Assembly: GCF_001886815.1 (NCBI RefSeq)
Contig: NZ_CP018099.1
Coordinates: 124,001-188,000, forward strand
Source: Caldithrix abyssi DSM 13497
GTDB lineage: Bacteria > Calditrichota > Calditrichia > Calditrichales > Calditrichaceae
Direction of reading: 5' to 3'
Length of the DNA stretch: 64,000 nucleotides
Translations under genes and position numbers: made by a program
In this document: one piece after another, positions 24,125 to 52,215 of the stretch
Layout: the number at the start of each line of letters is the position of its first letter
How positions within the stretch are numbered: position 1 is the stretch's first letter
The notes under the pieces: model-generated
Databases searched by the model: none
The model's input: the letters and a program-made list of their open reading frames with translations, nothing else
What the model was told of the DNA's origin: nothing

Positions 24125-24133
24125 AAAAATTTA

Positions 24134-26571: not shown

Positions 26572-27036
26572 CTATTTTACTAATATCATCTTTTTGGAAA
26601 TGCGCTCATTACCAAAAGTTACCTGGTAAATGTATAATCCGCTGGCTACTTTATTTCCCTGTTTATCGCGTCCATTCCATTTTACTCTGTGCTTGCCTGC
26701 CCCTTGATTTTCAGAAACAAGAGTTTTTACCAGCTGCCCAACGAGATTATAAATCCTGATTTCCACTTTGCCATTACGGGGTAGTTGGTACTCGATAGTC
26801 GTACTGGGATTGAACGGATTAGGATAGTTTTTCAATACCTTAAACGTTTTTATTGCCTGAACAATTCGCTGCGCGTCTTCAATATCCGTAACGCCTTCAA
26901 AGATGATTTTTTGAATTTCTGCTACCGGAAAGTTAATCACGCTGCCATTGTTTAAATGTAATTCCAGCGTATAATTTTGCGCAAAAAGAGATGGGGCCAG
27001 CAGAAAAAAGATGGATATTAAAATTTTTTTTAACAT
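26572..27036 (-). CDS. Short secreted protein: signal peptide, small module, type IX-like sorting tail
   Basis: A 154-residue protein made almost wholly of export parts. Signal peptide 1-19, then the module YTLELHLNNGSVINFPVAEI (similar to the start of the LamG protein), then a full C-terminal sorting domain with YPNPFNPSTTIEYQLP, VKWNGRDKQGNKVASGLYIY and final KKMILVK. There is no obvious passenger between them. It could be a small surface protein, or the shell of a larger gene that lost its middle. Composition is close to that of core genes, unlike its neighbours. Confidence 0.8.
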   Translation of the reverse strand: MLKKILISIFFLLAPSLFAQNYTLELHLNNGSVINFPVAEIQKIIFEGVTDIEDAQRIVQAIKTFKVLKNYPNPFNPSTTIEYQLPRNGKVEIRIYNLVGQLVKTLVSENQGAGKHRVKWNGRDKQGNKVASGLYIYQVTFGNERISKKMILVK

Positions 27037-27079
27037 ATTGTTTTCTCACAATTAATTTATTCCACTCATAAATAGGTTG

Positions 27080-29330: not shown

Positions 29331-29955
29331 TTTATTCCTCTTTCAAACGAAACGCTTATTAAATATACTCTCAATTTTAATGCCAAAAATTTTAGCCTGT
29401 TGATTTTATTATGGTTACAAAAATAAACGCCTGAAATCGTGCCTTTTTTTGTTTCACCAATGCAACGTTTTGGGGTATTGTTTGTTGCAATTATGAAACG
29501 CAATTGGGTTGTCCGAAAGCTTTATTTGACAGGGAGAATCATATTTCCTCCAGGTAATGCCAGGAAAAATGCGTTGCATTGGTGCAATGCGCAAAGTGCT
29601 TAATGTTTGTAATGCGTAACAAGTGACAGGTTAAAATTAAAGCGTAAACCACTCGCCCCAATTCGTTATTAAACGCCATTTTTTCATTAATTTCGCAGAC
29701 CATCGTAAAAAACCTGTGACACTATCAGCTAACCATTAAACTATTTAACTATTCAACTAATTAACCAACTACCATCTCCCCAGCCTTTTTTCGCCCGGGG
29801 CACAATGCAAGCCGGGCCAATGATTCCCGTCCATGAATCGCGCTTCTCCAGCCGTTATTTTGATTTAAAACATAACCGCTTAATTTAAATTTTCATTAAA
29901 TTACGGATCAATCGGGAAGGAAGGTTCTTTCAAAAATTATTGATTGGAAAACATC
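29331..29955. other. Intergenic: divergent region with a 13-bp inverted repeat
   Basis: The 625 bases hold no supported gene. CACCAATGCAACG (29455-29467) is the exact inverse of CGTTGCATTGGTG (29572-29584), 104 bases apart, and further TTGCAA-type words lie between. At 29735-29770 is a low-complexity run of AACTATT, AACTAATT and AACCAACT words related to 11472 and 17745. Promoters for both the island and the protease gene must lie here, but none is clear. Confidence 0.5.
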
Positions 29956-37574: not shown

Positions 37575-38156
37575 ATGATGCATGTGGTACACCGGCACAC
37601 GGGCTGGATCGAAGTTATTTGCGGCAGCATGTTCAGCGGCAAAACCGAAGAGTTAATACGCCGCTTAAAACGAGCGATGATTGCCAGGCAAAAAGTGGCT
37701 ATTTTCAAACCGAAGGTAGATACGCGCTACAGCACAACCGAAATCGTATCGCACGACAAACAAAAAATCAAATCGATTGTGGTGGAAAGTCCGCAGGAAA
37801 TTCTGGAAAAAGCATTGGAGGCCCAGGTGGTTGGCATCGACGAAGCGCAGTTTTTTGACGATTCTCTGGTCAACATCTGCCAAAAACTGGCTAACATGGG
37901 CAAACGCGTAATTATTGCCGGTCTGGATCAGGATTACCTGGGCAAACCCTTTGAGCCCATCCCGCAACTGCTGGCCGTTGCCGAATACATTACCAAAACG
38001 CACGCCATTTGCGTTGTTTGTGGCAATCCGGCCAATCACACCTATCGTAAGACCAAACAAAAAGATAAAGTCATTGTAGGCGCTTCGAATATTTACGAAG
38101 CGCGCTGCCGTAACTGTTTTCACGCTCCGGAAGAAGATGAAGAAGAGGAGAAATAA
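37575..38156 (+). CDS. tdk: Thymidine kinase (type II)
   Basis: A 193-residue TK1-like enzyme that makes dTMP from thymidine. P-loop GSMFSGKT spans residues 17-24. The catalytic region VVGIDEAQFFDDSL and a four-cysteine zinc site (CVVCGNP and CRNC) are present. The C-terminus is an acidic tail. With thyX at 60.6 kb this gives the cell both salvage and de novo dTMP. Confidence 0.95.
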   Translation: MMHVVHRHTGWIEVICGSMFSGKTEELIRRLKRAMIARQKVAIFKPKVDTRYSTTEIVSHDKQKIKSIVVESPQEILEKALEAQVVGIDEAQFFDDSLVNICQKLANMGKRVIIAGLDQDYLGKPFEPIPQLLAVAEYITKTHAICVVCGNPANHTYRKTKQKDKVIVGASNIYEARCRNCFHAPEEDEEEEK

Positions 38157-38161
38157 GGGTC

Positions 38162-39487
38162 ATGTTATCAACCATTTATGATATTCTATTTGGTTTTTTC
38201 GGATTAGCTTCTTTAATCGGTATCGCCTTTTTGTTTTCTGCAGACCGTAAACACATCATCTGGAAACAGGTGATTTTGGGCATTTTATTGCAGATTGTTT
38301 TCGCCATGTTCGTTCTCTTGACGCCCTGGGGCGCCTCGGTTTTTAACTGGATTGGCCACTTTTTTGTAAAGATCATTTCCTTTACCAACGAAGGCTCGCG
38401 TTTTGTGTTTGGCGTACTGGCCGATCATAGCACGTTTGAACAGGCTTTTCCCGCGGAGCTCACCGCAAAAGGGGTCGGTTTTATATTTGCTTTTCAGGTT
38501 TTGCCAACCATCATTTTCTTTTCTTCGCTGATGTCCGTTCTTTACTATCTGGGCGTTATGCAAAAAATTGTGCAGGCCATGGCCTGGGTGATGGCTAAAA
38601 CGTTAAATGTGAGCGGCGCCGAATCTATTTCTGTTGCGGCCAATGTTTTTATCGGTCAAACCGAAGCGCCGCTGGTGGTTCGCCCGTATGTGGACCCCAT
38701 GACCAAATCCGAACTATTGACGCTAATGATCGGCGGTATGGCCACCATCGCCGGCGGCGTACTGGCCGCTTATGTGGGCGTGTTGGGCGGAAGCGATCCC
38801 GCGCAACAGTTATTTTACGCCAAGCATCTGCTTTCGGCCAGCATCATGGCCGCGCCGGCGACCATCGTCATTTCCAAAATTCTGATGCCCGAACGCGAAG
38901 AGTCGGTGACCATGGGCAATGTAAAAGTTCCCATTGAACGCACCTCGGTCAACGTCATCGAAGCGGCCGCCACCGGCGCGGCAGACGGTCTGAAATTGGC
39001 GTTGAATGTGGCCGGCATGCTGCTGGCTTTTATCGCTTTAATTGCCATGGTTAACTGGATTCTGAAGGGCGTTTTTACCGATATGTTGGGCCTGACCGTG
39101 CAGGGCGGACAGCCTGTTTCGCTGGAGCTGGTATTGGGTTATCTGCTCAGCCCCATTGCCTGGATTATCGGAGTGCCCTGGCAGGATGCCATTAACGTCG
39201 GTTCGTTAATCGGCGAAAAAGTGGTGTTAAATGAATTCATCGCCTATTTGCATCTTTCCAAATTGATTCCTCAGCAGGTGCTTAGCGAAAAAGCGATTAT
39301 TATCTCCACCTACGCCCTGTGCGGCTTTGCCAACTTTTCTTCGATTGCCATTCAGATTGGCGGCATTGGCGGCATTGCCCCGCGGCGTGTGAGCGACCTG
39401 GCCAAATTTGGCATGAAGGCCGTGCTGGGCGGTACCCTGGCAACATTTATGACGGCAACCATCGCCGGCGTGTTAATTTCTTTGTGA
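38162..39487 (+). CDS. nupC: Concentrative nucleoside transporter (NupC family)
   Basis: A 441-residue inner-membrane symporter of the CNT family. Characteristic stretches are VFIGQTEAPLVVRPYV (nucleoside- and cation-binding loop), TLMIGGMATIAGGVLAAYVG, ILMPERE and YALCGFANFSSIAIQIGGIG near the C-terminus. CNT proteins import nucleosides with Na+ or H+. The neighbouring kinases and phosphorylase would trap and use the imported substrates. It follows tdk by 5 bases. Confidence 0.93.
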   Translation: MLSTIYDILFGFFGLASLIGIAFLFSADRKHIIWKQVILGILLQIVFAMFVLLTPWGASVFNWIGHFFVKIISFTNEGSRFVFGVLADHSTFEQAFPAELTAKGVGFIFAFQVLPTIIFFSSLMSVLYYLGVMQKIVQAMAWVMAKTLNVSGAESISVAANVFIGQTEAPLVVRPYVDPMTKSELLTLMIGGMATIAGGVLAAYVGVLGGSDPAQQLFYAKHLLSASIMAAPATIVISKILMPEREESVTMGNVKVPIERTSVNVIEAAATGAADGLKLALNVAGMLLAFIALIAMVNWILKGVFTDMLGLTVQGGQPVSLELVLGYLLSPIAWIIGVPWQDAINVGSLIGEKVVLNEFIAYLHLSKLIPQQVLSEKAIIISTYALCGFANFSSIAIQIGGIGGIAPRRVSDLAKFGMKAVLGGTLATFMTATIAGVLISL

Positions 39488-39500
39488 TGAGGTTTGGCAA

Positions 39501-41237
39501 ATGAAAACGTTTTTTCAGGTTTTTTTAGCGGTATTTTTAAGTCTTGTAATCATTATTTTTGGCGGACTTTTTTTGTTCAGCGCGGCGTTTGATTCCTCGC
39601 CGGATATCCCGGGGCACGCCTTCCTGGAATTCCAGCTGTCGGGCGATTTACCCGATTATGCGGCTCCGGATCCGATGGAAGAAGCGCTGGGTAAAACCAC
39701 GCTCGACATGAAGAAGTTTCGCGAAAACCTGGAAAAGGCGGCCGTCGATAAACGCGTTCATGCCGTGGTCATCCGCCCCGAACTTTTTAACGGCGGCTTT
39801 GCGCAGATTCAGGAAATGTACGCGCTGATTAAAAAATTTAAGGCCATAAGCGACAAAAAGGTTTACGCCTTTCTGGGAAGCGACTTCTCCTTTACGCGCG
39901 ATTACTACCTGGCCTGCGCCACCGATTCGATTTTCATGCCTGCGGACGCCAGCCTTTTTTTAACGGGCGTGCGCAGCGAAGTAACCTTTTATAAAGACTT
40001 TTTTAAAAAGATTGGCGTTGAAGCGCAGTTTTTGCAAATCGCCGAGTACAAAAACGCCCCCGAAGTTTACACACGCAACACAATGTCGCCCTATCATCGC
40101 CAGGTTTTAAACGAGGTGATCGATCAGTATTTCAGCGATGTTGTTCAGACCATTAGTGAAAGCAGAGATATTCCCGCAGAAAAGGTGGAATACTTGATCA
40201 ACAGGGTAAGCGGATTTTCGGGCAAAGAAGCGCTGGAATATGGGCTGGTAGATGATCTGGCCTATTACAGCGACCTGAAAACACTTTTGAAAAAAAGGCA
40301 AAAACGAATTAAAAAGCTTTCGGCTACCACCTATTCCCGTGTGTCGATCAGTTCATTAAAGATTCGCAACAAAAGCCGGGTGGCGGTGATTAACTGTGTG
40401 GGCACCATTTACAGCGGTTCGGAGAGCGACAATCCGTGGTTGGGCAAATTGTTAGGCGCAAAAACCATTATCGACAATATCCAGCGCGCGGCAAAATCAA
40501 AATCCATTAAAGCCATCATCTTACGTATCGATAGCCCCGGCGGGTCCTTACTACCTTCGGCGGCCATCTGGCGGGCCATTATGGAGGCAAAAAAGAAAAA
40601 ACCGGTTATCGCTACCATTTCCGATTTAGGAGCGTCGGGCGGGTATTTCATTGCCATGGCTGCCGACACCATTGTCGCCAATCCCAACAGCCTGGTTGGC
40701 TCCATCGGAATTTTTGCCGGAAAATTCAACTTTACCGGCACATACGATAAGCTGGGCTTGAATGTGGAAGCCGTGCAAAAAGGCGAAAACGCCGATCTCT
40801 TTTCCATTGTTAGCCCGTGGAGCAAACAGGAGCTGGCCATCATTCAAAAAATTATTAAACAATCCTATCGCGATTTCGTACAAAAAGTAGCCCGGGCCAG
40901 AAAGATGTCTTTTGACGAGGCCGAAAAACTGGCGCGCGGGCGAGTGTGGACCGGCGAACAGGCTTTTTCTCTCGGTTTGATCGACACCGTAGGGACCTTT
41001 TACACCGCCCTGAAAATTGCCAAACAAAGAGCCGGCATACCGGAAGCGGAGTCGGTACGCCTGGTTTATTACCCGAAGCAAAAATCGTTTTTGAATGAAA
41101 TTTTAAGCAACATTGAAACACTGGCAGGTTTAAAGGAACAAAATTTGCTCAAAGGCTTGCAGAACGCCGAACGCATCTTTACGCAATGGCAAAACAAGCC
41201 GCTGGCGTTGTTACCTTTTAGAATTGAGTTTAAATAG
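39501..41237 (+). CDS. sppA: Signal peptide peptidase SppA, 67-kDa type
   Basis: A 578-residue membrane-anchored serine protease of the long, duplicated SppA form. One N-terminal transmembrane segment lies at about residues 8-28. The catalytic Lys in the first half is K184 (EYKNAPEVY), and the Ser in the second half is S379 (GASGGYFIAM). RIDSPGGS and VGSIGIF are also conserved. SppA clears leftover signal peptides. Its place between nupC and punA in a salvage operon is unexpected and may merely reflect cotranscription. Confidence 0.93.
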   Translation: MKTFFQVFLAVFLSLVIIIFGGLFLFSAAFDSSPDIPGHAFLEFQLSGDLPDYAAPDPMEEALGKTTLDMKKFRENLEKAAVDKRVHAVVIRPELFNGGFAQIQEMYALIKKFKAISDKKVYAFLGSDFSFTRDYYLACATDSIFMPADASLFLTGVRSEVTFYKDFFKKIGVEAQFLQIAEYKNAPEVYTRNTMSPYHRQVLNEVIDQYFSDVVQTISESRDIPAEKVEYLINRVSGFSGKEALEYGLVDDLAYYSDLKTLLKKRQKRIKKLSATTYSRVSISSLKIRNKSRVAVINCVGTIYSGSESDNPWLGKLLGAKTIIDNIQRAAKSKSIKAIILRIDSPGGSLLPSAAIWRAIMEAKKKKPVIATISDLGASGGYFIAMAADTIVANPNSLVGSIGIFAGKFNFTGTYDKLGLNVEAVQKGENADLFSIVSPWSKQELAIIQKIIKQSYRDFVQKVARARKMSFDEAEKLARGRVWTGEQAFSLGLIDTVGTFYTALKIAKQRAGIPEAESVRLVYYPKQKSFLNEILSNIETLAGLKEQNLLKGLQNAERIFTQWQNKPLALLPFRIEFK

Positions 41238-41251
41238 AGGCGAGGTATAAA

Positions 41252-42070
41252 TTGAAAAAGAACGTTGAACAGGCAGTCGCTTACATCAGACAACACACCG
41301 ATCTCAAGCCGCAGATCGGCATCATTCTCGGGAGCGGTTTGGGACCTTTTGCCGATACATTGGAAGAGAAGGTGGTCATTCCTACAGAAACCATCCCTCA
41401 TTACCCTAAATCTACGGTTGAAGGCCATGCCGGCGCGCTGGTCTTTGGTAAACACGCCGGCGTAAATGTCATGGCCGTTAAAGGGAGAACCCATTTTTAC
41501 GAAGGATATTCCATCCAGGATGTAACCTTTGTCGTGCGTATTATGCAGATGCTTGGCGTTCCTCTGCTCATAGTCACCAATGCCTCGGGCTCGGTTAATC
41601 CCCGCTTACAGCCCGGCGATTTGATGTTGATTACCGATCACATTAATTTTCTGTTTCAGAATCCTCTGCGCGGTAAATTGGAGTTTGGCGAGCCCCGCTT
41701 TCCGGACATGTCCGACGTTTACACACGGGAATATTTTGACATTGTGGATCAAATTGCGCTGGAACGAGGCATTGCTTTAAAACATGGCGTATTGTGGGTT
41801 ACCACCGGTCCTTCTTACGAAACAGCGGCAGAGGTGAAGATGATTCGTAAGTTCGGCGGAGACTCGGTGAGCATGTCCACCGTTCCGGAGGTGATTGCCG
41901 CCGTACATGCAGGGATGAAGGTTATTGGTATCTCTTGCATCACCAATTTTGCCACCGGCATAACCGACAATAAACTCACGCATGATGAAGTTACGGAAAC
42001 AGCCAATCGTGTAAAAGAGAGGTTTACGAGCCTGGTCAGCGGAATCATTGAGTCCGTTCACTTGTTCTAA
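41252..42070 (+). CDS. punA: Purine nucleoside phosphorylase, trimeric class
   Basis: A 272-residue enzyme that splits inosine, guanosine and their deoxy forms with phosphate. Landmarks are GIILGSGLGPFAD (phosphate loop), TESIPHYP-like TETIPHYPKSTVEGHAG, VVTNASG-like LIVTNASGSV and GPSYETAAEVKMIRKFGGDSVSMSTVPEV. The C-terminal TNFATGITDN supplies the purine-specifying Asn. The start codon is TTG with a GAGG site. It is the last gene of the salvage operon. Confidence 0.94.
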   Translation: MKKNVEQAVAYIRQHTDLKPQIGIILGSGLGPFADTLEEKVVIPTETIPHYPKSTVEGHAGALVFGKHAGVNVMAVKGRTHFYEGYSIQDVTFVVRIMQMLGVPLLIVTNASGSVNPRLQPGDLMLITDHINFLFQNPLRGKLEFGEPRFPDMSDVYTREYFDIVDQIALERGIALKHGVLWVTTGPSYETAAEVKMIRKFGGDSVSMSTVPEVIAAVHAGMKVIGISCITNFATGITDNKLTHDEVTETANRVKERFTSLVSGIIESVHLF

Positions 42071-42101
42071 GTCACTTATTCCCTTTTTTTACGATTACAG
42101 C

Positions 42102-42131
42102 TTGACATGGTTAAATTATTTATTACCTTTA
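42102..42131 (+). promoter_or_regulatory. Bacteroidota-like promoter for the FecR/CHASE2 locus
   Basis: TTG at 42102-42104, a 19-base spacer and TACCTTTA at 42124-42131 closely fit the TTG-N19-TAnnTTTG promoter layout, with the last base differing. It lies 28 bases before the GTG start at 42159, in the short gap after punA. Confidence 0.5.
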
Positions 42132-42158
42132 CGTTAAAGTTTAATCGCCGGAGGTAAG

Positions 42159-43289
42159 GTGAAAAAAATCATAAATATATTTATTGTTTTCTTTTTAATA
42201 ATACATGCTTCGTTAACAGCGCAAACGATTAGCAATGATTTTACGCTGCGGTTGACTATTTTGGATGGCGAACAATTGCAAACGCTTTATCTCTCTGATG
42301 TGGATTTTCAGAATTATGGTACGGCTGAGATGATCTTTGAACTGGAAATCAGAAAAAATACGGACAGGGCGTATGAAAACTGTTACTTTCGCATTCTGTT
42401 GTCCAAAGATAATCAACCTTTAATGTCAACCATTTCGCGGCCTTTTAACATTCCGGCCAGCTTTCAATCGGATGTTCTGAACAATCTGACTCTTTCTGCC
42501 GGTACCTATCGATTTGGCCAAACGGCGGATACGGAAGTTCATTTCGAGCAAACCAATATTGAACCAGAAGCGGATAAATTAAGAGACGAAATTTTGTCTT
42601 CGGGCAAAGCGCCGGTCGGCGTGTACATTCTTACCATTGAACTCATGCAGCTTAATTCCAGCGTACCTCTGGCAAGAGAAGAAAAAATTCTCCTGAAAGC
42701 CGTTAACCCGAGCTATCTGAACCCAGTGGCGCCCGGAGCGCCCGCAGGTTCTTATCAGGTGCCCACTATTTTTAGCCAGTATCCGCTTTTTCAGTGGACC
42801 GGCAACGGCAGCGAGTTTCAGGTAATGGTTTTTGAGAAAAAGGAAATGATGCAATCGGTTGATGACATTATAAACAGCCAGCCAAATTGGATTTCGGAGC
42901 GCACCTCACAGTTCACAATTCAATATCCCCAGGCCGGCAACGCCATCCCGCTGGAATACAGCAAGACCTATTACTGGCTGGTTCGCATGTTTGTCAATAC
43001 CTCTTCCGGCGAAGAGTTTGTAGATAGTGAAATCTGGCAATTCAGACTGGTAAACCCCGAGCAGGGCGCCAACCTGCAAGACCAGTTAGCTCAATCGGAA
43101 CTGTGGATGTTTTTGGAACAATTGTTAGGCGCCCGTGTTGCAGACATCAAAGCCAATTTAAAGGACTTCAGCCTTAAACGTATTGTTTACAATGGCGAAG
43201 AAATTACATTGGACCAATTTTTTAATCTTTTAAGTAGTTATCGGGCCGAAAAAATTGAACTGGTGGATTTTGAGGCCCCCGAGAAATAA
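42159..43289 (+). CDS. Secreted protein of unknown family, first gene of the FecR/CHASE2 locus
   Basis: A 376-residue exported protein with signal peptide 1-21. The first half (LRLTILDGEQLQTLYLSDVDF, then EMIFELEIRKNTDRAY) and the middle (PLFQWTGNGSEFQVMVFEKKE, TYYWLVRMFVNTSSGEEF) have the strand pattern of fibronectin-III/Ig domains. The last 70 residues are helical (DQLAQSELWMFLEQLLGARVADIKANL). I do not recognise the family. Start is GTG with GGAGG at 5 bases. The next three genes follow within 9-15 bases each, so it is likely part of the same envelope device. Confidence 0.65.
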   Translation: MKKIINIFIVFFLIIHASLTAQTISNDFTLRLTILDGEQLQTLYLSDVDFQNYGTAEMIFELEIRKNTDRAYENCYFRILLSKDNQPLMSTISRPFNIPASFQSDVLNNLTLSAGTYRFGQTADTEVHFEQTNIEPEADKLRDEILSSGKAPVGVYILTIELMQLNSSVPLAREEKILLKAVNPSYLNPVAPGAPAGSYQVPTIFSQYPLFQWTGNGSEFQVMVFEKKEMMQSVDDIINSQPNWISERTSQFTIQYPQAGNAIPLEYSKTYYWLVRMFVNTSSGEEFVDSEIWQFRLVNPEQGANLQDQLAQSELWMFLEQLLGARVADIKANLKDFSLKRIVYNGEEITLDQFFNLLSSYRAEKIELVDFEAPEK

Positions 43290-43302
43290 TCCTGGAGTAG
43301 GT

Positions 43303-43995
43303 ATGAAATTGTTGTTTAATCTGAAGTATATTGTTCTAATTATTTTGATATTTCTTTTCAGTTCTTTAACGGCTGCCAACGAGCCTATTGCTATTGTCAT
43401 TAAAGCTAAAGGAAAGGTATTTTTAGTTCATCAGGGAAGTAAAAAAGGAAAACCTGTTCGTCGAGGAACAAGAATTTATCATAATCAAAGTATTTTAACC
43501 AAGCAAAAGAGTTTTGCCATTATTAAGTACATTGATAACGGCGGCGTTGTGCGAATTCAGGCTAACTCTTTCTGCCGTTTTGAAGGGAAAAAACAAAAAA
43601 ACTCGCTATTTAAAAATCTCTATCTGGAAGTAGGCTCCATATTTAACAGAGTCTTTAAAGAGAAAGGAGAATTTCGGGTTACCACCCCAACTTCCGTGGC
43701 CTCGGTTAAAGGTACAAAATTTTGGGTTAAACAAGAATTTAAAGGCGCGACCTACTATTTTGGGGAAGATGGGGTTGTTGAAATTTCTAATGGACGCGGC
43801 GTGGCTCTTCTTAAAGCCGGCATGACCGGCATCGTTAATTCGCCCAACAGCAAGCCCATTGTGCGTAAAACACGCAGCGGGGAAAAACCCGAACTAAAAG
43901 AAGACCAACGCGCCGATGAATTTCGACTCGAATTCGAAGACGCCCGGGGCAATACCAAAACCATAAAGTTTAAAATCCGTAAAGAAAATGAATAG
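43303..43995 (+). CDS. Exported FecR-domain protein
   Basis: A 230-residue protein with signal peptide 1-24 and no other membrane segment, so it is probably periplasmic. A FecR domain covers about residues 25-180: KAKGKVFLVHQGSKKGKPVRRGT, AIIKYIDNGGVVRIQANS and GEFRVTTPTSVASVKGTKFWV. FecR proteins usually pass signals from outer-membrane receptors to an anti-sigma system, but no sigma factor is nearby. The C-terminus is charged. ATG 43303 has GGAG upstream; an earlier start would overlap the previous gene. Location points to a role in sensing with the barrel and cyclase that follow. Confidence 0.85.
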   Translation: MKLLFNLKYIVLIILIFLFSSLTAANEPIAIVIKAKGKVFLVHQGSKKGKPVRRGTRIYHNQSILTKQKSFAIIKYIDNGGVVRIQANSFCRFEGKKQKNSLFKNLYLEVGSIFNRVFKEKGEFRVTTPTSVASVKGTKFWVKQEFKGATYYFGEDGVVEISNGRGVALLKAGMTGIVNSPNSKPIVRKTRSGEKPELKEDQRADEFRLEFEDARGNTKTIKFKIRKENE

Positions 43996-44004
43996 CGATA
44001 AGTC

Positions 44005-46341
44005 ATGAAAAAAATAATTCTTGGTTTTTTAATATTCTGGTTTAATTTCAGTCTTTTACATGCAGGAAGCTTTTATCACCAGCCCCCGTCAACCGTTTTA
44101 CAGGGCGAGAAACTCCGCCTGGAGCTGCAGTCGATGGACTTCGACGGGGCACTCCTCTATCCGACCGTTTATTATCGGAGCCTGGGAGAGTTTGACTTTC
44201 ACGCCCTGCCCATGGAAAATGACGGCTATTTGTTCTATGCAGAAATTCCCACTACCAGATTAAACCCTGGAAAAGTGCAATATTATTTCGCCATGCAGGG
44301 CCCCACCGGACAGCCGTACACCTTTCCCGAAGGCGCGCCGTACAGCAATTATTACGAAATAGAAATTTTGCCTGCCAATCAACGGACTCCGATTAAAAAA
44401 ATAGAAGTTAACTTAATCTCTCCTGAAGAGGATGAGGTTCTTGAACCCGATGAAGTTTTTCTGGCCTTTTCCATCCCTCTGGATATTGAGCATCCGGAAA
44501 AATGGACGTATCGCATCACCATAGACGGGGTGGATCATTCTTCCCGGTTACAGACAGAAGGACACGTTATTTATTTTACGCCCTCTTCGGTACGTAGCGG
44601 CAGCCATACCGTAAGTTTTAAGGTTTACAATCCGGATGGCATTCTGGTTGGCCATAAACAATTTCAATTTAGAATTAGTGATATGCCTTCAAAAAACAAC
44701 GCTTTTTCTTACAAAGGCTCGTTGTTTTTGGACAATCGAACGCAAACCATTGCCCGAAACAATTTAAACTACACGCGCTCGGGGCTGCGTTTAAATTTAA
44801 ATTACAGAAAATTTCAGCTCGATACGCGTTTGATGTTAAACTCTAACGAAAGCGCCGATCGTCAGCCATTAAACATTTATTCCGCCCGTTTAAAATATCA
44901 GTTTTCGTACAAATATTACCTGTATTTGTGGGGCGGCGATGTTTTCCCCAATTATGACCCGCTGGTTTTGCAAGGACGGCGCATTCGCGGTTTAAGCGTT
45001 GGGCTGACCAGTAAGTTTTTTAATTTTGATTACACCCAGGGACAGTCGCTGCGCGCCATTGAAGGGCAGACCGCTGCCGATGATCCTGCCAGAATAATTC
45101 GTCGGGGAACCTACGCGCAAAAGTTTGTAAGCTTAAGGCCCCAGCTTAATTTTGGCAGTCATTTTAGCTGGGCACTTAATCTGGTTAACGGAAGGGACGA
45201 CCCCGCTTCCATTCAATATGGCGGGAATCCCAAAGAGTACCTGGTGGTAGGAAGCTCCTTGGATATCAATTTGCACAATCGCAGAATTGTCATTCATGGC
45301 AGCGCTCAGGCCAGCATCAAAAATGTGGACGCCACGGGAGAAATCGATTTTGACACGCTGGCAACCACTCTGGATCTGAGTGAGTCGGAAAAAAACATGG
45401 CCGAACGCATCATAAATATCTTTACCAAACCGGGCTTTTTGACGCTTACGCCCGGCCTGGCGCCCCTGCCGACCTTTGCCTTTAATGTGGCTGCCCGCTT
45501 TAATTATTTTAATAACAGTTTAAGCATTATGTACAAAAAAATTGACGCCGATTATTACACGCCGGGTAATCCATTCCTCTTAAAAGATATTTCCGGTATT
45601 TTTATTAACGATTACCTGCGCTTTTTTAACAATCGTATTTTCATGAATATCTTTTACAACGTCTATCAAACCAGTGAGTCGCAGGGGATAGCCAAAACTT
45701 CAAGCAAAGACATCGGCGCGTCGATTTCATTAATGCCGCAAAGCAACCTGCCGTCGGTCTCTTTAACCTACATAAACTACAAACGTCAAAATGATGTGAC
45801 CGAAGAAGACTCGCTTTTCATCCCGGAAGATAATGCCACGCAATCTATCGGACTTTCAGGAACCTATCAGTTTTTTGCAGGGAAAATCCGCAACACGGTT
45901 TCGGTCAGCGTAAATCATTTTCTGCGCGACGATGTTTACAAGATTTCGCAATCGCAATACAACCTGTTTACGGTTGGACTGAGGAACTATTTTCCGTTTA
46001 AGTTGGTTTCGCGTTTTACCTATTCTAAAAGCGCCAGCGAATTTGGCGCAATGGATGTAAAAACGACCAATGATATCGTACGCTACACCATAGGCCTGGA
46101 GTACATCATTGATAATTTTGTGGGGAACAGCCAGTTAAAACCTTTTGTGAACGGAAATTTTCAGACGATTGAAAATTCGACCCTTTCCCGTACCTACAAA
46201 AGGCAGAACTTTGCGGCAGGTCTTTATTTAAGAACAAAAAGGCTGGGTAATTTAAGCTTACGATTCGATTACATCAACTATGGTAATTTCCGTGATTACA
46301 AAGACACAATACTTTCAACGCGATATGAATTATTTTTCTAA
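44005..46341 (+). CDS. Outer-membrane beta-barrel protein with N-terminal Ig-like domains
   Basis: A 778-residue exported protein with signal peptide 1-20. Residues about 20-240 contain two beta-sandwich domains (for example LLYPTVYYRSLGEFDFHALP and YRITIDGVDHSSRL). From about 250 onward, alternating strands with aromatic girdles (LRLNLNYRKFQLDTRLMLNSN, FNFDYTQGQSLRAI) run to a final RYELFF, as expected of an outer-membrane barrel. The family is unknown to me; TonB box and plug are not visible. It lies between the FecR and cyclase genes and is the likely surface component of the locus. Confidence 0.75.
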   Translation: MKKIILGFLIFWFNFSLLHAGSFYHQPPSTVLQGEKLRLELQSMDFDGALLYPTVYYRSLGEFDFHALPMENDGYLFYAEIPTTRLNPGKVQYYFAMQGPTGQPYTFPEGAPYSNYYEIEILPANQRTPIKKIEVNLISPEEDEVLEPDEVFLAFSIPLDIEHPEKWTYRITIDGVDHSSRLQTEGHVIYFTPSSVRSGSHTVSFKVYNPDGILVGHKQFQFRISDMPSKNNAFSYKGSLFLDNRTQTIARNNLNYTRSGLRLNLNYRKFQLDTRLMLNSNESADRQPLNIYSARLKYQFSYKYYLYLWGGDVFPNYDPLVLQGRRIRGLSVGLTSKFFNFDYTQGQSLRAIEGQTAADDPARIIRRGTYAQKFVSLRPQLNFGSHFSWALNLVNGRDDPASIQYGGNPKEYLVVGSSLDINLHNRRIVIHGSAQASIKNVDATGEIDFDTLATTLDLSESEKNMAERIINIFTKPGFLTLTPGLAPLPTFAFNVAARFNYFNNSLSIMYKKIDADYYTPGNPFLLKDISGIFINDYLRFFNNRIFMNIFYNVYQTSESQGIAKTSSKDIGASISLMPQSNLPSVSLTYINYKRQNDVTEEDSLFIPEDNATQSIGLSGTYQFFAGKIRNTVSVSVNHFLRDDVYKISQSQYNLFTVGLRNYFPFKLVSRFTYSKSASEFGAMDVKTTNDIVRYTIGLEYIIDNFVGNSQLKPFVNGNFQTIENSTLSRTYKRQNFAAGLYLRTKRLGNLSLRFDYINYGNFRDYKDTILSTRYELFF

Positions 46342-46350
46342 AAATAGCGC

Positions 46351-48501
46351 ATGAAAATTCAAAAACCTGAGCCCAAAAAGAGCATAATATTTCTTTTATT
46401 TTTTCTGTCGCTGTCTGGCGCTTATCTATTGAGCCATACCAGCGTGTTTCAGACCCTTGAGTTAAAATTTCTGGATTTAAAATTTCAATTGCGAGGAGCG
46501 CTGCCGATTGAAAATTCATCGGTGATCATTCTTGCCATAGATGATCAATCGGATCTTTCCACGCCCCATCGCTGGCCCTGGCCCCGCTCTTATTTTGCCC
46601 ATGTTATTGAGAATCTTGAAAAAGCCGGTGCGGCCGTCATTGGCGTTGATGTTATTTTTGATCAACCGGATGTGTCAAATCCTCAAAGCGATGATTCGCT
46701 GGCTCATGTATTAAAGCGATATCCCAACGTGGTATTGGCGGGGAAGCTTCAACATCGCCGCGGCCGAATTTCCACCATCGAAGTGTTGCCTCCCTACCAC
46801 AAGTTTACCGAAGCCAACAATAACTGGGGGCTGGTGTCGCTGGAAGCTGATGTTGACGGTTTTTACCGCCGCTATCCATTGGTGGCTCGCGTTCAGGATT
46901 CGCTATTACCCTCCTTTGCTGCAAAGATCATTCAACTGTATTTGCAAACAGAGACAGAAATTAAGGACCTGGATTCCGAAGTATGGATTGGCGACATTGC
47001 TGTGCCAAAATACGATTCCAGAAACATGTTGATCAATTATTACGGGCCGCCGTTTCATTATCCTTATGTGTCGTTCGATAATGTTCTGGATGATCAGGAG
47101 GTCGATCTGGTCGAAGAATATGATGTGGATGCCTTTGACGACCCTGGCGATTCCACGCTCGGCATCCCGCCCGGGCTGCTCTATTCCGGCGAGTTGAAAG
47201 ATAAAATTGTCTTAATTGGCTCTACCATGCCGGAGCTACATGATAACTTCCCCACACCCTTTCTACAGGAGGCCTTTTCCGGCGCAGAGAAGGCGCGCGT
47301 TGAAATGCCCGGGGTCGAAATCCACGCCAATGCCATTCAATCTATTTTAGACCGCAACTTTATTGATGTCGCCAATCCCTGGTTCATGTTCGTGCTGAAT
47401 ATTTGTCTTGCTTTGCTTATTTTAATCTCTGTGCAAAAGAAAGCCACATTACTAAATTTATTTTTGTTTTTTTTGCTATCTGTGGCTTATGGTCTGATCT
47501 CCATTCTCTTTTTTACCAAAGGACATCTATTAATTCCCATAACCACACCCGTGCTGGTGATTTTATTTAGCTTCATCAGTCAAATTTCCTATCAATACAT
47601 CCTTTCGCAGCAGGAAAAACGGATGTTGCGGGGCGTTTTTTCGCACTACGTTCCTGAAAAATTAATTCAGGAAATTATCGCCCATCCGGAAAAATTAGCT
47701 CTGGGCGGCGAAGAGCGTGAGGTTACGGTGCTGTTTTCCGACATTGCGGGCTTTACCACACTGTCAGAACACATGAAACCGGCTGAGCTGGTTACCCAGT
47801 TGAATGAATACCTTACGGCCATGACCAATGTCATCTTACGGCATGATGGAATCATCGACAAATTTGAAGGCGATGCCATCATGGCTGAATTTGGCGTTCC
47901 TGTCCATTTTGAAGGGCATCAAAAAGCAGCCTGCCTGGCCGCATTGGAAATGCAACAGGAGCTAAAAAAGCTGAATCGTAAATGGCAGCAGGCCCATAAG
48001 CCGCTGTTTGAAGTGCGTATTGGCATCAATACCGGCATAGTGATTGTGGGCAACATGGGCTCGGAAAAGGTGTTCGATTACACGGTGATTGGCGACCACG
48101 TTAACCTGGGCGCGCGCTTAGAAGGAGCAAACAAAGCGTACAAAACCAAAATTATGGTGAGTAATTTTACCTATGAAGCCGTGAAAGAAGATTTTATCTT
48201 TCGCCCATTGGATTTGATCCGCGTCAAAGGCAAAACCAAACCGGTGCAGGTGTACGAGCTTATCGGCTCACGCCAGACGCCATACACCGATCAATTCATG
48301 GAAATGCTCGATCTTTTTAATCAGGGACTGGTCGCCTACCGCCTGCAGCAGTGGGACCTGGCCAGAGAGTTTTTTGAACAATGCTTACGACTGGTGCCAA
48401 ACGACGGTCCCAGTCAGCTTTACGTGGAGCGCTGTCAGTTTTTTGCTCTAAATCCGCCCGAACCCGATTGGGACGGCGTGTGGGACTTTAAAGTAAAGTA
48501 A
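46351..48501 (+). CDS. CHASE2-domain class III adenylate cyclase
   Basis: A 716-residue inner-membrane enzyme. An N-terminal transmembrane helix, a periplasmic CHASE2 sensor (about 35-340; SVIILAIDDQSDL, HRWPWPRSYFAHVI) and three more helices (345-430) precede the cytoplasmic cyclase domain. Metal-binding D464 (FSDIAGFT) and D508 (FEGDAIMAEFG), transition-state N585 and R589 (VNLGAR) are present. The base-selecting pair K504/T578 suits ATP, so cAMP is the probable product. A short TPR-like tail follows. All catalytic residues are intact. It lies last in the locus; the barrel and FecR protein may convey the signal CHASE2 receives. No cAMP receptor is in the window. Confidence 0.92.
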   Translation: MKIQKPEPKKSIIFLLFFLSLSGAYLLSHTSVFQTLELKFLDLKFQLRGALPIENSSVIILAIDDQSDLSTPHRWPWPRSYFAHVIENLEKAGAAVIGVDVIFDQPDVSNPQSDDSLAHVLKRYPNVVLAGKLQHRRGRISTIEVLPPYHKFTEANNNWGLVSLEADVDGFYRRYPLVARVQDSLLPSFAAKIIQLYLQTETEIKDLDSEVWIGDIAVPKYDSRNMLINYYGPPFHYPYVSFDNVLDDQEVDLVEEYDVDAFDDPGDSTLGIPPGLLYSGELKDKIVLIGSTMPELHDNFPTPFLQEAFSGAEKARVEMPGVEIHANAIQSILDRNFIDVANPWFMFVLNICLALLILISVQKKATLLNLFLFFLLSVAYGLISILFFTKGHLLIPITTPVLVILFSFISQISYQYILSQQEKRMLRGVFSHYVPEKLIQEIIAHPEKLALGGEEREVTVLFSDIAGFTTLSEHMKPAELVTQLNEYLTAMTNVILRHDGIIDKFEGDAIMAEFGVPVHFEGHQKAACLAALEMQQELKKLNRKWQQAHKPLFEVRIGINTGIVIVGNMGSEKVFDYTVIGDHVNLGARLEGANKAYKTKIMVSNFTYEAVKEDFIFRPLDLIRVKGKTKPVQVYELIGSRQTPYTDQFMEMLDLFNQGLVAYRLQQWDLAREFFEQCLRLVPNDGPSQLYVERCQFFALNPPEPDWDGVWDFKVK

Positions 48502-48510
48502 CAGCGATTT

Positions 48511-48858
48511 TTAATCTTCGCCTAAAATAGACTGCAAAATCACGCTCACAATACTGATTACCAGCGCGGCTAAGATGGCCACGCCAAACCCCGAAACATA
48601 AAAGCTATCCACAAAAAAGTCCGTTAACTCCAGAATGATCGCATTAATTATTAAGGTAAAAAGTCCCAAGGTCAGTAAATTCAGGGGCAGGGTAAAGATA
48701 AGCAAAATGGGCTTGATAAAGGTGTTTAAAATACCAAAAACAATGGCCGCCCCCACCAGAGCGCCGGTGCTCTCAAAATGAATTCCACTAAATAAAACAT
48801 CCGTAAACCACAGGGCGGCAGCGTTGATAAAAAGCCGGATTAACATGTTTCTAAGCAT
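48511..48858 (-). CDS. Phage-holin-4-type (superfamily IV) small membrane protein
   Basis: A 115-residue protein with four hydrophobic segments. LWFTDVLFSGIHFES, AAIVFGILNTFIKPILLIFTLPLN read in order, and TLGLFTLIINAIILELTDFFV are characteristic of the chromosomal four-helix family named after a phage holin. In bacteria these are common membrane proteins of unknown role, and nothing phage-like is nearby. The gene converges on the cyclase gene with a 9-base gap. Confidence 0.85.
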   Translation of the reverse strand: MLRNMLIRLFINAAALWFTDVLFSGIHFESTGALVGAAIVFGILNTFIKPILLIFTLPLNLLTLGLFTLIINAIILELTDFFVDSFYVSGFGVAILAALVISIVSVILQSILGED

Positions 48859-49191
48859 TCAAGCCTCCTTCCATTTCAGATATTTTAAAGAATAATGGGC
48901 AGATGCGCAATAAAAAAAGAAAGGGTCAGTGTAAGTTTTTGCTTAACACTGACCCTTTGGGAGGAGGAGCTATGCGTTTCACATATTATATTCGGCCTTT
49001 TAAAATCAAACCTTTAATAATATGTCGCTTTTTAACCACGTCTATTATACGGGGAAGCCCCTGCAAAAGTTCAACGAAATTTAAAATTATTTTTGTTTTT
49101 TAACTGGTTAAGTGGATTGGCGTTCGTTTTAAAAGATTATCATGAGTCAGCGTCTCTGAGAGGTGATTAAAGATTTTTTTCATTTCCGGGA
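48859..49191. other. Intergenic with a strong minus-strand terminator
   Basis: These 333 bases contain the hairpin at 48911-48958. On the plus strand GGGAGGAGGAG at 48959-48969 stands 2 bases before an ATG that opens a 43-codon frame (MRFTYYIRPFK start) ending at 49103. Its codon use and composition look random, so it is not called as a gene. A GGGGAAGCCCC hairpin lies near 49050. Confidence 0.45.
48911..48958 (-). terminator. Intrinsic terminator on the minus strand, after the helicase gene
   Basis: AAAGGGTCAGTGT (48920-48932) is the exact inverse of 48946-48958, and read on the minus strand the stem is followed by a T-rich run (TTTCTTTTTTT). It lies about 235 bases beyond the helicase stop at 49192 and 50 before the small membrane protein start, so it should separate these two units. 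Confidence 0.75.
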
Positions 49192-51606
49192 TTAATCGGC
49201 GCGATCCATTTTTTGCCAGAAATTTTTAAGGGCCTTCAGGTAGTCGCTGGTAATTTCCACATCGTCTTCTTTGCGGAACCAATAATCGGGCAGCAGCAGA
49301 TTAAAACGCTCGTCGGCAAAGCGATCGCCAATGAGCAGCACAACGCCTTTGTCCGTCGCAGAGCGAATCAGGCGTCCCACGGCCTGAATAACCTTATTCA
49401 TGCCCGGATAAATGTAAGCGTATTCTTCGCCCATGTGGTAGGTTTCTTCGTAATATTGACGCAGGAGCTCGCGTTCAAAGCTCACCTGGGGGAGGGCCGG
49501 GCCGATTACAATCACGCCAATGGCCATGTTGCCGCTAAAATCTACGCCTTCGCTAAAAATGCCGCCCATCACGGCCATAAGCAGATGGGGCGCTTGGCCG
49601 GCTCGTAACTTATCCAGCGTCTCATCGCGTTCTTTTGCCTTCATGCCCGGTTTCTGGATGATTTTTTCGCCCGGTATCTGATTCAAAAACACATTAACCA
49701 GTTGTAAAAATTCAAAGCTGGGGAAAAAAACCAGATAGTTGCCCGGTTTAACGGAGATGGTATTGCGGATGATCTCAGCGATTTTAGGCGCGTTGCGCAG
49801 GCGGTCTTTATAGCGTGTGGAGATGCCCGGTACAATAATCAGCTTACGGTTTTCCAGAGGAAAGGGAGAATCGAGCTGCAGAAAGCGTGTGCGCACCGCG
49901 GAAAAACCCAGCAGGTTTCGGTAGAATTCCATGGGATCCAGGGTGGCCGACATGGCGATCACGCCATGAAAGCGGTCGATGATCTCGCCCAGGTAGTGGG
50001 AAGGATCGCAGCACTGGATGTGCAGAACGCCGTCGTTCATGGCGTTGAAAAAGGCGACAAAAGCGCGGTCTTCGATATGAGCCACCCGTACGAAACGGCG
50101 CAGTTGATAGAAAATCGCTTCCAGGGGGTCGTCCACAATCAGTTTTTTTGCGCGGATTTTGTAGATCAAATAGCGGATGAAAGCCGCTTCAAATTGTTTA
50201 AAAGCTTCGTCTAATTGCTTAAGATCGAGCTGGGTTAAAAAATACTGCTGATGCTCGTAATTCAGCTCGCCCTCGCGCTGCAGTTGATCGAGCATGGATT
50301 TGAATTCTTTCAGCCCGCTGGTTAAATCCCGGTAAACTCTGGCGCGCTGTTGAGCGGTAAAGGCGATCAATTCGGCCAGTTTGCGGCGTTCAATCTGCGG
50401 AGAAAGGTAGTTCATGCCCCGCTCGTACAGGTTGTGCGCTTCGTCGATGATCAAAATCCAGTCCGAAAAATCTTTGCTCATGAACAACCTACGCAACTGA
50501 GCCGCCGGATCGAAAACGTAATTGTAATCGCCGATGATCAAATCCACATGCGCCAGTAAATCCATGCTGACTTCAAACGGGCAGAGTTGCGCCCCGGCCG
50601 CCGCCGAAGAGATCGCTGCCGGATCAATAAAATCGTTGGCCAGCAAATTGGGCAAAAGATTGCTGGAAAGAAGCCGCTGATTGTAATCTTTAATGTAAGG
50701 ACAAAAAGACGGATGGCAGAAAAAAACATCGTTTAAGCACATCTTTTCGGAAGCGGTAATGACCATGGCCTTTAAAGGCAGGCCCTGGGCAATAAGCGGC
50801 AGAACAGTTTCAACGGCGATGCGCTGCTGCGTTGTTTTGGAGGTGATAAAAAAGATCTTTTTATTGTTCAAATAGGCGTGGCGAATGGCCGGATAGAGCG
50901 CCGCGGCGGTTTTTCCCGTGCCCGTGGGCGCGGAAGCCATTAAATGCGCGCCCGACTCCAGCGCCTGCCGAACTTCGTCCATCATCATTTGTTGCTGAGG
51001 ACGTTCTTCCGGCAGATCGAATTGAATTTTGCGGATTAAAGCCTGACGTTCGGCCAGCTTCTGGCGTTCATCCAGGATGCGCTGTACAATTTCTTCAAAA
51101 CGCACCTGCAGCATGCGCTCTACCTGCATTCGATTGTAAACAATGGGGAACGAGCGCTGTTGATTGTTGATCAAATTAACCAGGATTAAAAAAGTTTGAA
51201 CTTCCAGCCCATCAAAGGAATCTTGCAGCAGGTAGGCGTAAAACAGCAGCTGTTCGCTGAAATGCGGGTAGCGCTCGATCTGCAACCGTTTAAATTCTGC
51301 CGGCCGCAGGATGACCGACTTAATCTCTTCGATTTCCATACGGTCGGACAACTGGTAAACGCCGTCGATTCGCCCCTGAATGTGAAAGGTGAAGTCGCGG
51401 TAGGCGTATGCGCGATTTACCGTAAATTCACGGTGGAACAATCCGAAATGTTTTTGTTTGGATTCCTGCACGCGTCTGTGCGCCTTTTGCCCTAAAACGC
51501 CGCGCTGGGGCAGCGGGAAAGAAGAAATTAGAGGTTGATCTGGCGGGTAATGCACCAGATCGCGAACCGCCAGGTAAATATCGTTGTTTTCAATACGAAT
51601 GGCCAT
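49192..51606 (-). CDS. dinG: DinG/XPD-type helicase with N-terminal PD-(D/E)XK nuclease-like domain
   Basis: An 804-residue superfamily 2 DNA helicase. Residues about 1-180 carry the Cas4/RecB-type nuclease pattern H43, D81 (GRIDGVY), E94-x-K96 (EIEEIKSV) and Q119 (SEQLLFYAYLL). Walker A is APTGTGKT (226-233). The iron-sulfur domain shows four cysteines (MCLND, FFCHPSFCPY, QLCPFE), Walker B is IIDEAHN, and the last motif is AVGRLIRSATDKGVV. It probably unwinds damaged or branched DNA and may also cut it. It follows the TorD-like gene with 3 bases between, so the two are cotranscribed. The fusion is a notable architecture. Confidence 0.88.
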   Translation of the reverse strand: MAIRIENNDIYLAVRDLVHYPPDQPLISSFPLPQRGVLGQKAHRRVQESKQKHFGLFHREFTVNRAYAYRDFTFHIQGRIDGVYQLSDRMEIEEIKSVILRPAEFKRLQIERYPHFSEQLLFYAYLLQDSFDGLEVQTFLILVNLINNQQRSFPIVYNRMQVERMLQVRFEEIVQRILDERQKLAERQALIRKIQFDLPEERPQQQMMMDEVRQALESGAHLMASAPTGTGKTAAALYPAIRHAYLNNKKIFFITSKTTQQRIAVETVLPLIAQGLPLKAMVITASEKMCLNDVFFCHPSFCPYIKDYNQRLLSSNLLPNLLANDFIDPAAISSAAAGAQLCPFEVSMDLLAHVDLIIGDYNYVFDPAAQLRRLFMSKDFSDWILIIDEAHNLYERGMNYLSPQIERRKLAELIAFTAQQRARVYRDLTSGLKEFKSMLDQLQREGELNYEHQQYFLTQLDLKQLDEAFKQFEAAFIRYLIYKIRAKKLIVDDPLEAIFYQLRRFVRVAHIEDRAFVAFFNAMNDGVLHIQCCDPSHYLGEIIDRFHGVIAMSATLDPMEFYRNLLGFSAVRTRFLQLDSPFPLENRKLIIVPGISTRYKDRLRNAPKIAEIIRNTISVKPGNYLVFFPSFEFLQLVNVFLNQIPGEKIIQKPGMKAKERDETLDKLRAGQAPHLLMAVMGGIFSEGVDFSGNMAIGVIVIGPALPQVSFERELLRQYYEETYHMGEEYAYIYPGMNKVIQAVGRLIRSATDKGVVLLIGDRFADERFNLLLPDYWFRKEDDVEITSDYLKALKNFWQKMDRAD

Positions 51607-51609
51607 ATG

Positions 51610-52215
51610 TTATTCTAAATCGATTGAATCAATATCCGGCGCTTCCTGCGCCTCTGCCATCAGGTGAATTAAGTCATGCAGACCTTTGGCAATTTCCTTG
51701 TAAAAAGTGAGCGTGGTTTTCTGGTAAATGGTCGCGCACAATTTGGGAATCGGTTCTTTTAAAAACTTTTCATAAAAATTTAAGATTGATGGCTCTTCTT
51801 CGTAATCCAGCGCCGAAGCAAAATATTCCAGAACATGGGTCACAAAGTCGGGATGCTCGCCGCTGTACTGGGAAACGCCGATATCAAACAGAAGCTCTTC
51901 TAATTCCGAAAGATCGTGCATGGGCGTCCAATCTTGCAGTTGTAAAGAGATGACCGGCGGAATTTCCTTGCGCGGGGTAAACAGGCGCGTGTACTCGGCC
52001 TGCAGAGCTTTCATCTCTTCGCCCTGATAGTGGTTGATGATGTCTAAAATGCGCGCCGTGATGGTGTTGTCAAAGGCGTTTTCGATGTTTTTTTCCATCT
52101 CTCTGAAAATGTGCTGCAACTCGTGCGTCAGCTCGTCATAGGGATAGGTCAGAGTTCTGGCGTAAAAATTAAAGGCATTGGCCAGCACACTGCGGTTAAA
52201 TTGACTGTATTTCAT
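51610..52215 (-). CDS. TorD/NarJ-like redox-enzyme chaperone
   Basis: A 201-residue all-helical protein. The segment ALQAEYTRLFTPRKEIPPV resembles the conserved EYTRLF...P stretch of the TorD/DmsD/NarJ family. The later PDFVTHVLEYFASALDYEEE resembles its second conserved helix. Such chaperones guide molybdenum enzymes for assembly and Tat export. No molybdoenzyme gene is in the window, so its partner is elsewhere. It is directly upstream of the helicase gene, a pairing that seems accidental. Confidence 0.7.
   Translation of the reverse strand: MKYSQFNRSVLANAFNFYARTLTYPYDELTHELQHIFREMEKNIENAFDNTITARILDIINHYQGEEMKALQAEYTRLFTPRKEIPPVISLQLQDWTPMHDLSELEELLFDIGVSQYSGEHPDFVTHVLEYFASALDYEEEPSILNFYEKFLKEPIPKLCATIYQKTTLTFYKEIAKGLHDLIHLMAEAQEAPDIDSIDLE

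Follow-up and report, generated by a model that had tools for sequence, protein, structure and literature searches.

In signalling of the FecA-FecR-FecI type, an outer-membrane barrel and the periplasmic domain of FecR relay a surface signal, and FecR, which spans the inner membrane, has a sigma factor as its target. FecR domains are also found beside CHASE2 receptors, as described in the available parts of several papers. In Sinorhizobium meliloti, perception of the ribosomal protein uL2 depends on an outer-membrane barrel, NsrA, and on a CHASE2 cyclase, CyaK; CyaD1 and CyaD2 serve a second signal, and cyclic AMP (cAMP) activates Clr (PMC7529298, PMC13001267). A cluster of Campylobacterota, reported to have been moved horizontally, is described to contain a CHASE2 cyclase, a phosphodiesterase, a FecR-domain outer-membrane protein and a TPR protein (PMC9239204). 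In the Burkholderia BiofilmReg operon and its Pseudomonas aeruginosa relative, a LysM-FecR gene is described beside those of a CHASE2 histidine kinase and a response regulator; according to the same source, it was not known as of 2016 what CHASE2 domains recognise (PMC5192318). Here we analyze four plus-strand genes that lie in series at 42159-48501 of a 64-kb window (the whole stretch of DNA that was analyzed) from Caldithrix abyssi, whose chromosome is a 4.98-Mb single-contig genome of the phylum Calditrichota. They encode an Ig-like protein that we call P1, a FecR-domain protein, an outer-membrane barrel and a CHASE2 adenylate cyclase. The comparison of genomes supports these four genes as one conserved unit with a linkage far beyond chance, and we consider it probable, though with clear reservations, that they act as one trans-envelope signalling device.

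The NsrA-CyaK pair resembles this locus in several ways. A 1219-amino-acid protein is encoded before cyaK on pSymB, with the two genes touching each other, and from its place, length and anatomy we take this protein to be NsrA. As in C. abyssi, the barrel gene is thus immediately 5' of the CHASE2 cyclase gene, and in S. meliloti the pair belongs to one cAMP route. The FecR domains are homologous: the Calditrichota FecR profile matches NsrA residues 72-199 with 51.3 bits (E 2e-17, for a set of five sequences). The cyclase profile matches CyaK with 338.5 bits, and the alignment covers 631 columns with 30% identity. However, in S. meliloti the FecR domain, TPRs and barrel are all parts of the one long protein, whereas in C. 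abyssi they are encoded by separate genes with no TPR linker. Also, no P1 gene adjoins NsrA, and the S. meliloti ligand is a ribosomal protein. The Campylobacterota cluster likewise combines a FecR-domain protein of the outer membrane with a CHASE2 adenylate cyclase; it contains the additional phosphodiesterase and TPR protein, and a P1-like or separate barrel gene is not described in the accessible part of that paper. In BiofilmReg a periplasmic FecR-domain gene adjoins the CHASE2 receptor gene, but there the receptor is the histidine kinase with its response regulator, and barrel and cyclase are absent as far as the available part of the source describes the operon.

The sequence-only reading of this DNA had noted that FecR and CHASE2 genes occur together in other bacteria, which the S. 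meliloti, Campylobacterota and Burkholderia cases bear out in the parts available to us (PMC7529298, PMC9239204, PMC5192318). Its further statement, that a complete surface-to-cAMP path with its own barrel is not characterised, has to be narrowed, as the NsrA-CyaK route is published; what is new is that the genes are split and include a separate barrel family and P1, and that there is a specific link to porX. A search of the open-access literature found no paper linking Caldithrix abyssi with adenylate cyclase.

Linkage of the four genes in two phyla

In a sample of 40 Calditrichota genomes, FecR was found in 40, CHASE2 in 39, the barrel in 38 and P1 in 35. The barrel is mostly single-copy, and its count would be 39 with a weak match in G004 (24% over 131 residues), which was not counted. 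The gene order is highly conserved. P1 is directly 5' of FecR in 34/34 testable cases, FecR is directly 5' of the barrel in 35/36 (the exception is G012), and the cyclase is directly 3' of the barrel in 35/37, the exceptions being G034 and G039; in G002 the contig stops within the barrel and the position of the cyclase is not testable. All four genes are consecutive on one contig in 27/40 genomes, and contig ends interrupt most of the others. G039 does have the operon-type cyclase, at another site. A second 'barrel' match in the same genome (L094, 267 bits) was dropped, as its anatomy is that of a repeat protein sorted by the type IX secretion system (T9SS).

The unlinked CHASE2 cyclases provide an internal control for this linkage. 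None of the 53 further CHASE2 matches in the Calditrichota genomes has a FecR gene within 6 kb on the same strand. This test was based on 39 barrel rows, namely the main rows with the two pieces of G035 merged and the G028:C580 piece added; G004 and other minor, N-terminal-piece and weak rows were left out, and the count of FecR genes beside a barrel was lowered to 32. The unlinked cyclases form a separate clade of 21 genes (support 99), and the operon cyclases group apart. Since the clades are separate and no FecR gene is found beside the other CHASE2 genes, the linkage is confined to a single cyclase lineage. C. abyssi itself carries a second CHASE2 cyclase (L051:7065-9215), which has neither FecR nor barrel beside it and belongs to the phylum-wide separate clade.

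The operon is also found outside Calditrichota. GTDB species genomes were scanned with the FecR alignment, and the best 80 of 218 confirmed relatives were analyzed: 33 are Calditrichota loci and 47 are others, 29 of them labelled Fidelibacterota (= Neomarinimicrobiota) and the rest LCP-89, Cloacimonadota, Bacteroidota-labelled, three more Calditrichota-labelled and further metagenome-assembled genomes (MAGs). P1 is 5' of FecR in 45 of these 47 loci and the barrel is 3' in 42, with a cyclase after the barrel in 33/42. Among the nine barrel loci without a cyclase, there is a contig edge in L133, L143, L149 and L166, but not in L134, L135, L153, L160 and L162. All ten cyclases that were checked outside the Calditrichota set consist of CHASE2 and Guanylate_cyc domains, and the barrels of Calditrichota and Neomarinimicrobiota can be aligned over their full length (766 columns at a probability of 100).

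In addition, 120 Neomarinimicrobiota genomes were sampled independently of FecR, as an even draw from a larger group; they share ancestry, and their counts are not independent events. CHASE2 was found in 94 of them and the barrel in 91 (E <= 0.001), or in 84 at a score of at least 190 bits. A CHASE2 gene adjoins the barrel on the same strand in 80 of these 84 genomes, as counted from 150 CHASE2 rows (93 of the 94 positive genomes) and 94 barrel rows that reach 190 bits. The co-occurrence that the sequence-only reading had proposed to look for in gene neighbourhoods is therefore found in both phyla, by the cyclase counts given above for each. These results suggest that the P1-FecR-barrel-cyclase operon is ancient in the Fibrobacteres-Chlorobi-Bacteroidetes (FCB) group.

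Ten genomes whose operon lacks an adjacent barrel or cyclase were checked, and in all ten CHASE2 genes are found elsewhere. Four related MAGs have a broken operon, with P1-FecR at one site and barrel-cyclase at another, and both halves are kept (L128, L129, L132 and L136, with L205-L208); P1-FecR is near glyA-type genes in 3/4 and barrel-cyclase is beside a GAPDH-type gene, both named by reading. In three Neomarinimicrobiota-type genomes a FecR-like gene with no barrel match is directly 5' of another cyclase (L211:3033-3794, L212:191-928, L213:4295-5038). The gene after the cyclase putatively resembles a lipid A acyltransferase, by reading its sequence, at L170:13340-14260 and L171:9195-10085.

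One explanation for such a pattern is that the genes are co-transcribed and yet work independently, with the cyclase responding to a signal of its own. The unlinked CHASE2 cyclases of the same genomes do without FecR or barrel, and some barrel operons have no cyclase. We find this explanation unlikely, as the linkage is kept across two phyla, the unlinked Calditrichota paralogues gain no such partners, and the broken operon is maintained in both of its halves.

Anatomy of the operon

The spacing of the four genes is 13, 9 and 9 bases, within the 9-13 bases that were first read from the sequence. The gene 3' of the cyclase, at 48511-48858, is on the opposite strand, and therefore the operon consists of four genes. 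P1, the FecR protein and the barrel protein each have one N-terminal hydrophobic segment and no other. For P1, the Pfam search gives no family above cut-off. Its AlphaFold model, from a 30-member alignment (pLDDT 82.4), shows Ig/Fn3-like sandwiches, and a fold search with this model returned generic Ig/Fn3-type matches only. Assignment to DUF928 was based on a single weak match (E 0.045) and 2/30 members, and this claim was not made. In L159, P1 and FecR appear in one 613-aa open frame. This was not used as evidence of a fusion, because the internal signal peptide is kept and a lost stop or an assembly error is equally likely.

The FecR protein matches Pfam FecR with 32.6 bits (cut-off 24), and 35/35 members of its family match it too. 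Since its only hydrophobic segment is N-terminal, it is predicted to be a secreted periplasmic protein, which could not serve as a classical anti-sigma factor. A TTG start at 43255, listed by the open-reading-frame program, overlaps P1 and was discarded. A FecR domain beside an outer-membrane barrel also brings to mind surface signalling of the FecA-FecR-FecI type from which the sigma factor has gone missing, but this option is extremely improbable. The signal-like segment leaves no cytoplasmic anti-sigma part, so the membrane-spanning FecR of that system is not what we find here, and the barrel does not match the TonB-receptor families in Pfam. No sigma factor gene was found among the eleven genes spanning 37575-52215, in agreement with the first reading. 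Classical FecIR signalling was ruled out by this absence and by a FecR that does not span the membrane; in C. abyssi, FecR would be soluble and its partner a cyclase.

For the barrel protein the Pfam search also gives no family above cut-off. Its AlphaFold model (30-member alignment, pLDDT 82.7) shows two Ig-like domains and then ~26 strands that start at residue 235 and reach the C-terminal F778, and both Foldseek and VIA-align 2 match it to outer-membrane barrels. The top VIA-align 2 row is the 26-strand MtrB (6r2q_B; Z 18.5, root-mean-square deviation 4.3, 444 aligned), and the next row has a Z of 16.4. None of the 30 barrel members matches the MtrB family in Pfam, and we read the structural match as one that probably reflects similar size and not kinship. 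Such a match can be taken further, to an option in which a complex of barrel, P1 and FecR serves transport or surface assembly; the cyclase would monitor through CHASE2 how this complex assembles, as a quality control that involves no external ligand. That the barrel is near-universal and mostly single-copy in a phylum of free-living bacteria is more in line with a core envelope task than with the sensing of a single ligand, and the best structural match is indeed a component of an electron conduit. Yet structural matches of barrels track strand number and reveal no function, the operon has no linked transport partner gene and lacks the cytochrome partners of MtrB, and no multihaem cytochrome gene was found among the eleven genes tested around it; we regard the option as doubtful.

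The cyclase matches CHASE2 with 214.6 bits and Guanylate_cyc with 100 bits in Pfam, and has one N-terminal hydrophobic segment and a cluster of them at 343-419. Matches to TOMM_kin_cyc, Lsa33 and LipL45 in NCBIfam are far under their cut-offs. The class III residues D464, K504, D508, D576, N585 and R589 are all present and are invariant across 31 aligned cyclases; these are presumably the metal-binding Asp pair, the Lys/Asp substrate pair and the Asn/Arg transition-state pair. By these residues the cyclase appears catalytically intact, and cAMP would be its product. Seven matches to cyclic nucleotide monophosphate (cNMP)-binding domains are found in the C. abyssi genome. A cNMP-binding protein gene, encoding a candidate cAMP receptor, is directly 3' of the operon cyclase at L131:13713-14309 and L159:7690-8250 (74 and 61 bits). 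Together, these matches and this gene position make cAMP a plausible messenger.

Pfam, the models and the catalytic residues thus agree with the initial description of an Ig-like protein, a periplasmic FecR protein, a large barrel with Ig-like domains and an intact CHASE2 cyclase, and components for all layers of the envelope can be predicted from segments and folds. That description also mentions a good promoter. No sigma-70-like site scoring 9/12 was found at the operon start, but there is a TTG-N19-TAnnTTT site, which resembles promoters of the Bacteroidetes/FCB type. The pattern TTGA-N16-20-TAnnTTT occurs at 20 sites in the window versus 8.0 +/- 2.6 expected, an enrichment that suggests an FCB-type promoter in Calditrichota. 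Upstream of the operon, at 37575-42070, are genes for thymidine kinase, a nucleoside transporter, an SppA-type peptidase and purine nucleoside phosphorylase; the peptidase gene is also 5' of the operon in 12 related pieces and the phosphorylase gene in 15. The features of the locus are collected in Table 1.

Table 1. Features of the C. abyssi operon (positions within the window).
Feature	Position	Strand	Description
Promoter-like TTGACA...TACCTTT (TTG-N19-TAnnTTT, FCB type)	42102..42130	+	Pattern match; putative promoter
Ribosome-binding-like GGAGG ahead of the P1 GTG start	42150..42154	+	Read from sequence
P1 gene	42159..43289	+	GTG start, 376 aa; predicted secreted, Ig/Fn3-like sandwiches and C-terminal helices
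FecR-domain protein gene	43303..43995	+	230 aa, predicted periplasmic; second transmembrane segment absent
FecR domain PF04773, residues 64-146	43492..43740	+	Pfam
Outer-membrane barrel gene	44005..46341	+	778 aa, C-terminal F
Ig-like region of the barrel protein, residues 23-225	44071..44679	+	Secondary structure of predicted model
~26-stranded barrel, residues 235-778	44707..46338	+	Model; strands counted by hand from DSSP line
CHASE2 adenylate cyclase gene	46351..48501	+	716 aa
CHASE2 domain, residues 25-357	46423..47421	+	Pfam
Class III cyclase catalytic domain, residues 456-635	47716..48255	+	Pfam; catalytic residues present
TPR-like repeat of the cyclase, residues 655-685	48313..48405	+	TPR_2 26.8 bits, cut-off 27

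A possible route across the envelope

The most likely mechanism is that the barrel, P1 and FecR set the state of the CHASE2 domain and hence cAMP synthesis. The 26-stranded barrel would be the surface-exposed part of the receptor, and its Ig-like domains, together with periplasmic P1 and FecR, would relay the state of the barrel through the periplasm. The FecR protein, or a complex that contains it, would then bind CHASE2 on the periplasmic side of the inner-membrane cyclase and set the activity of this enzyme, as a soluble adaptor and not as an anti-sigma factor, and the resulting cAMP would be read by cNMP-binding regulators. In NsrA, FecR and barrel are one chain, and by this analogy it can be argued that the separate FecR and barrel proteins of C. 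abyssi may work together. Here we infer all contacts, the ligand, cAMP as the product and its target, and also the direction of signalling (outside-in sensing or control of assembly), the last by analogy with NsrA.

Several observations weigh against this mechanism. G012 has barrel-cyclase without P1-FecR, and there is no adjacent cyclase at the barrel operon in G034, G039 and five other loci; three of the genomes with such cyclase-less operons carry another cyclase with its own FecR-like gene. Distance correlations by mirror-tree do not separate linked from unlinked CHASE2. For FecR, the raw r is 0.855 with linked versus 0.838 with unlinked CHASE2 (partials 0.62 versus 0.43), and the corresponding partials are 0.50 versus 0.50 for P1 and 0.59 versus 0.52 for the barrel. 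The barrel profile finds no homology to NsrA (hhalign probability 0.2, with NsrA as a single sequence, so that remote homology is possible); as FecR and cyclase are homologous and the barrel is not detectably so, the third module is at most analogous to that of NsrA. Finally, the S. meliloti FecR protein SMc02177 is described, in the accessible part of the paper, as dispensable for signal perception in the assay used (PMC5498481).

porX and type IX secretion

Another question that is raised by the gene neighbourhoods regards the target of the cyclase. A PorX-like response regulator gene is directly after the cyclase in 19 loci, and the four that were tested are all PorX above the NCBIfam cut-off. 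Across the 120 Neomarinimicrobiota genomes, 61/80 barrel-linked CHASE2 genes versus 1/70 other CHASE2 genes have porX (NCBIfam NF052313) as their next gene downstream. The 61 cases are 60 above cut-off and one 191-bit contig-end fragment (G143), and the lone 'other' gene (G151:C19) begins 13 bases from a contig end, with its upstream gene out of view. Two Calditrichota genomes of another family, G022 and G023, likewise have porX after the cyclase. In C. abyssi, porX is unlinked to the operon (G000:C1:4623687, 711 bits), and it is elsewhere too in nearly all Calditrichota.

We know of no established partner enzyme for the phosphodiesterase domain of PorX, and a search of the open-access literature found no paper joining PorX with CHASE2. 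In one PorX paper that mentions adenylate cyclase, this enzyme serves in a two-hybrid assay. Both cyclic and linear oligoadenylates are described as substrates that PorX of Porphyromonas gingivalis hydrolyses, and the effector domain of Flavobacterium johnsoniae PorX as a zinc-dependent phosphodiesterase (PMC11320123, in its available part), and the accessible text of another source describes the role of this activity as unclear (PMC10951265).

One possible option, which we put forward tentatively, is that the operon belongs to type IX secretion as one of its regulatory arms. The barrel, P1 and FecR would signal the state of the secretion channel or of surface cargo, and PorX would be the protein on which, or together with which, the cyclase product acts. 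This would be a special case of the trans-envelope signalling device, with a named target. It is favoured by the position of porX after the cyclase, including in G022 and G023, by the cleavage of oligoadenylates by P. gingivalis PorX, and by the presence in C. abyssi of porX and of T9SS sorting domains in the window. However, porX is elsewhere in C. abyssi and nearly all Calditrichota, and the linkage may be an inherited neighbourhood rather than function, as the genomes share ancestry. Also, porX exists without the operon (above cut-off in 104/120 Neomarinimicrobiota genomes versus 84 with the barrel), and cAMP is not named as a PorX substrate in the parts of the PorX literature available to us. 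With similar caution, we can suggest that in FCB bacteria the operon provides the outer-membrane input arm for the control of type IX secretion: the barrel would report the surface or secretion state via FecR to the cyclase, PorX would bind or cleave the adenine-nucleotide product, and the circuit would persist in Calditrichota with porX unlinked.

Genes of the TonB-C, ExbB and ExbD types come after porX in C. abyssi (L214:6682-10354). T9SS-type C-terminal sorting domains (TIGR04183, cut-off 23) are found in three open frames of the window, at 29944-36156 (+), 22859-24130 (-) and 26575-27045 (-), with scores of 27.1, 32.6 and 47.1 bits, respectively; one of these frames encodes a 2070-aa subtilase with Ig repeats.

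The porX linkage suggests, as a concrete hypothesis, a reason for the phosphodiesterase activity of a secretion regulator, and an adenylate cyclase with outer-membrane partner genes beside PorX, with its adenine-nucleotide phosphodiesterase domain, makes a testable circuit. The only bench-studied route from a barrel to CHASE2 that we found is that of the plant symbiont S. meliloti. The split, vertically kept and mostly single-copy version in environmental phyla provides separable parts for finding which component touches CHASE2, and its conservation suggests an ancient device with a core envelope task.

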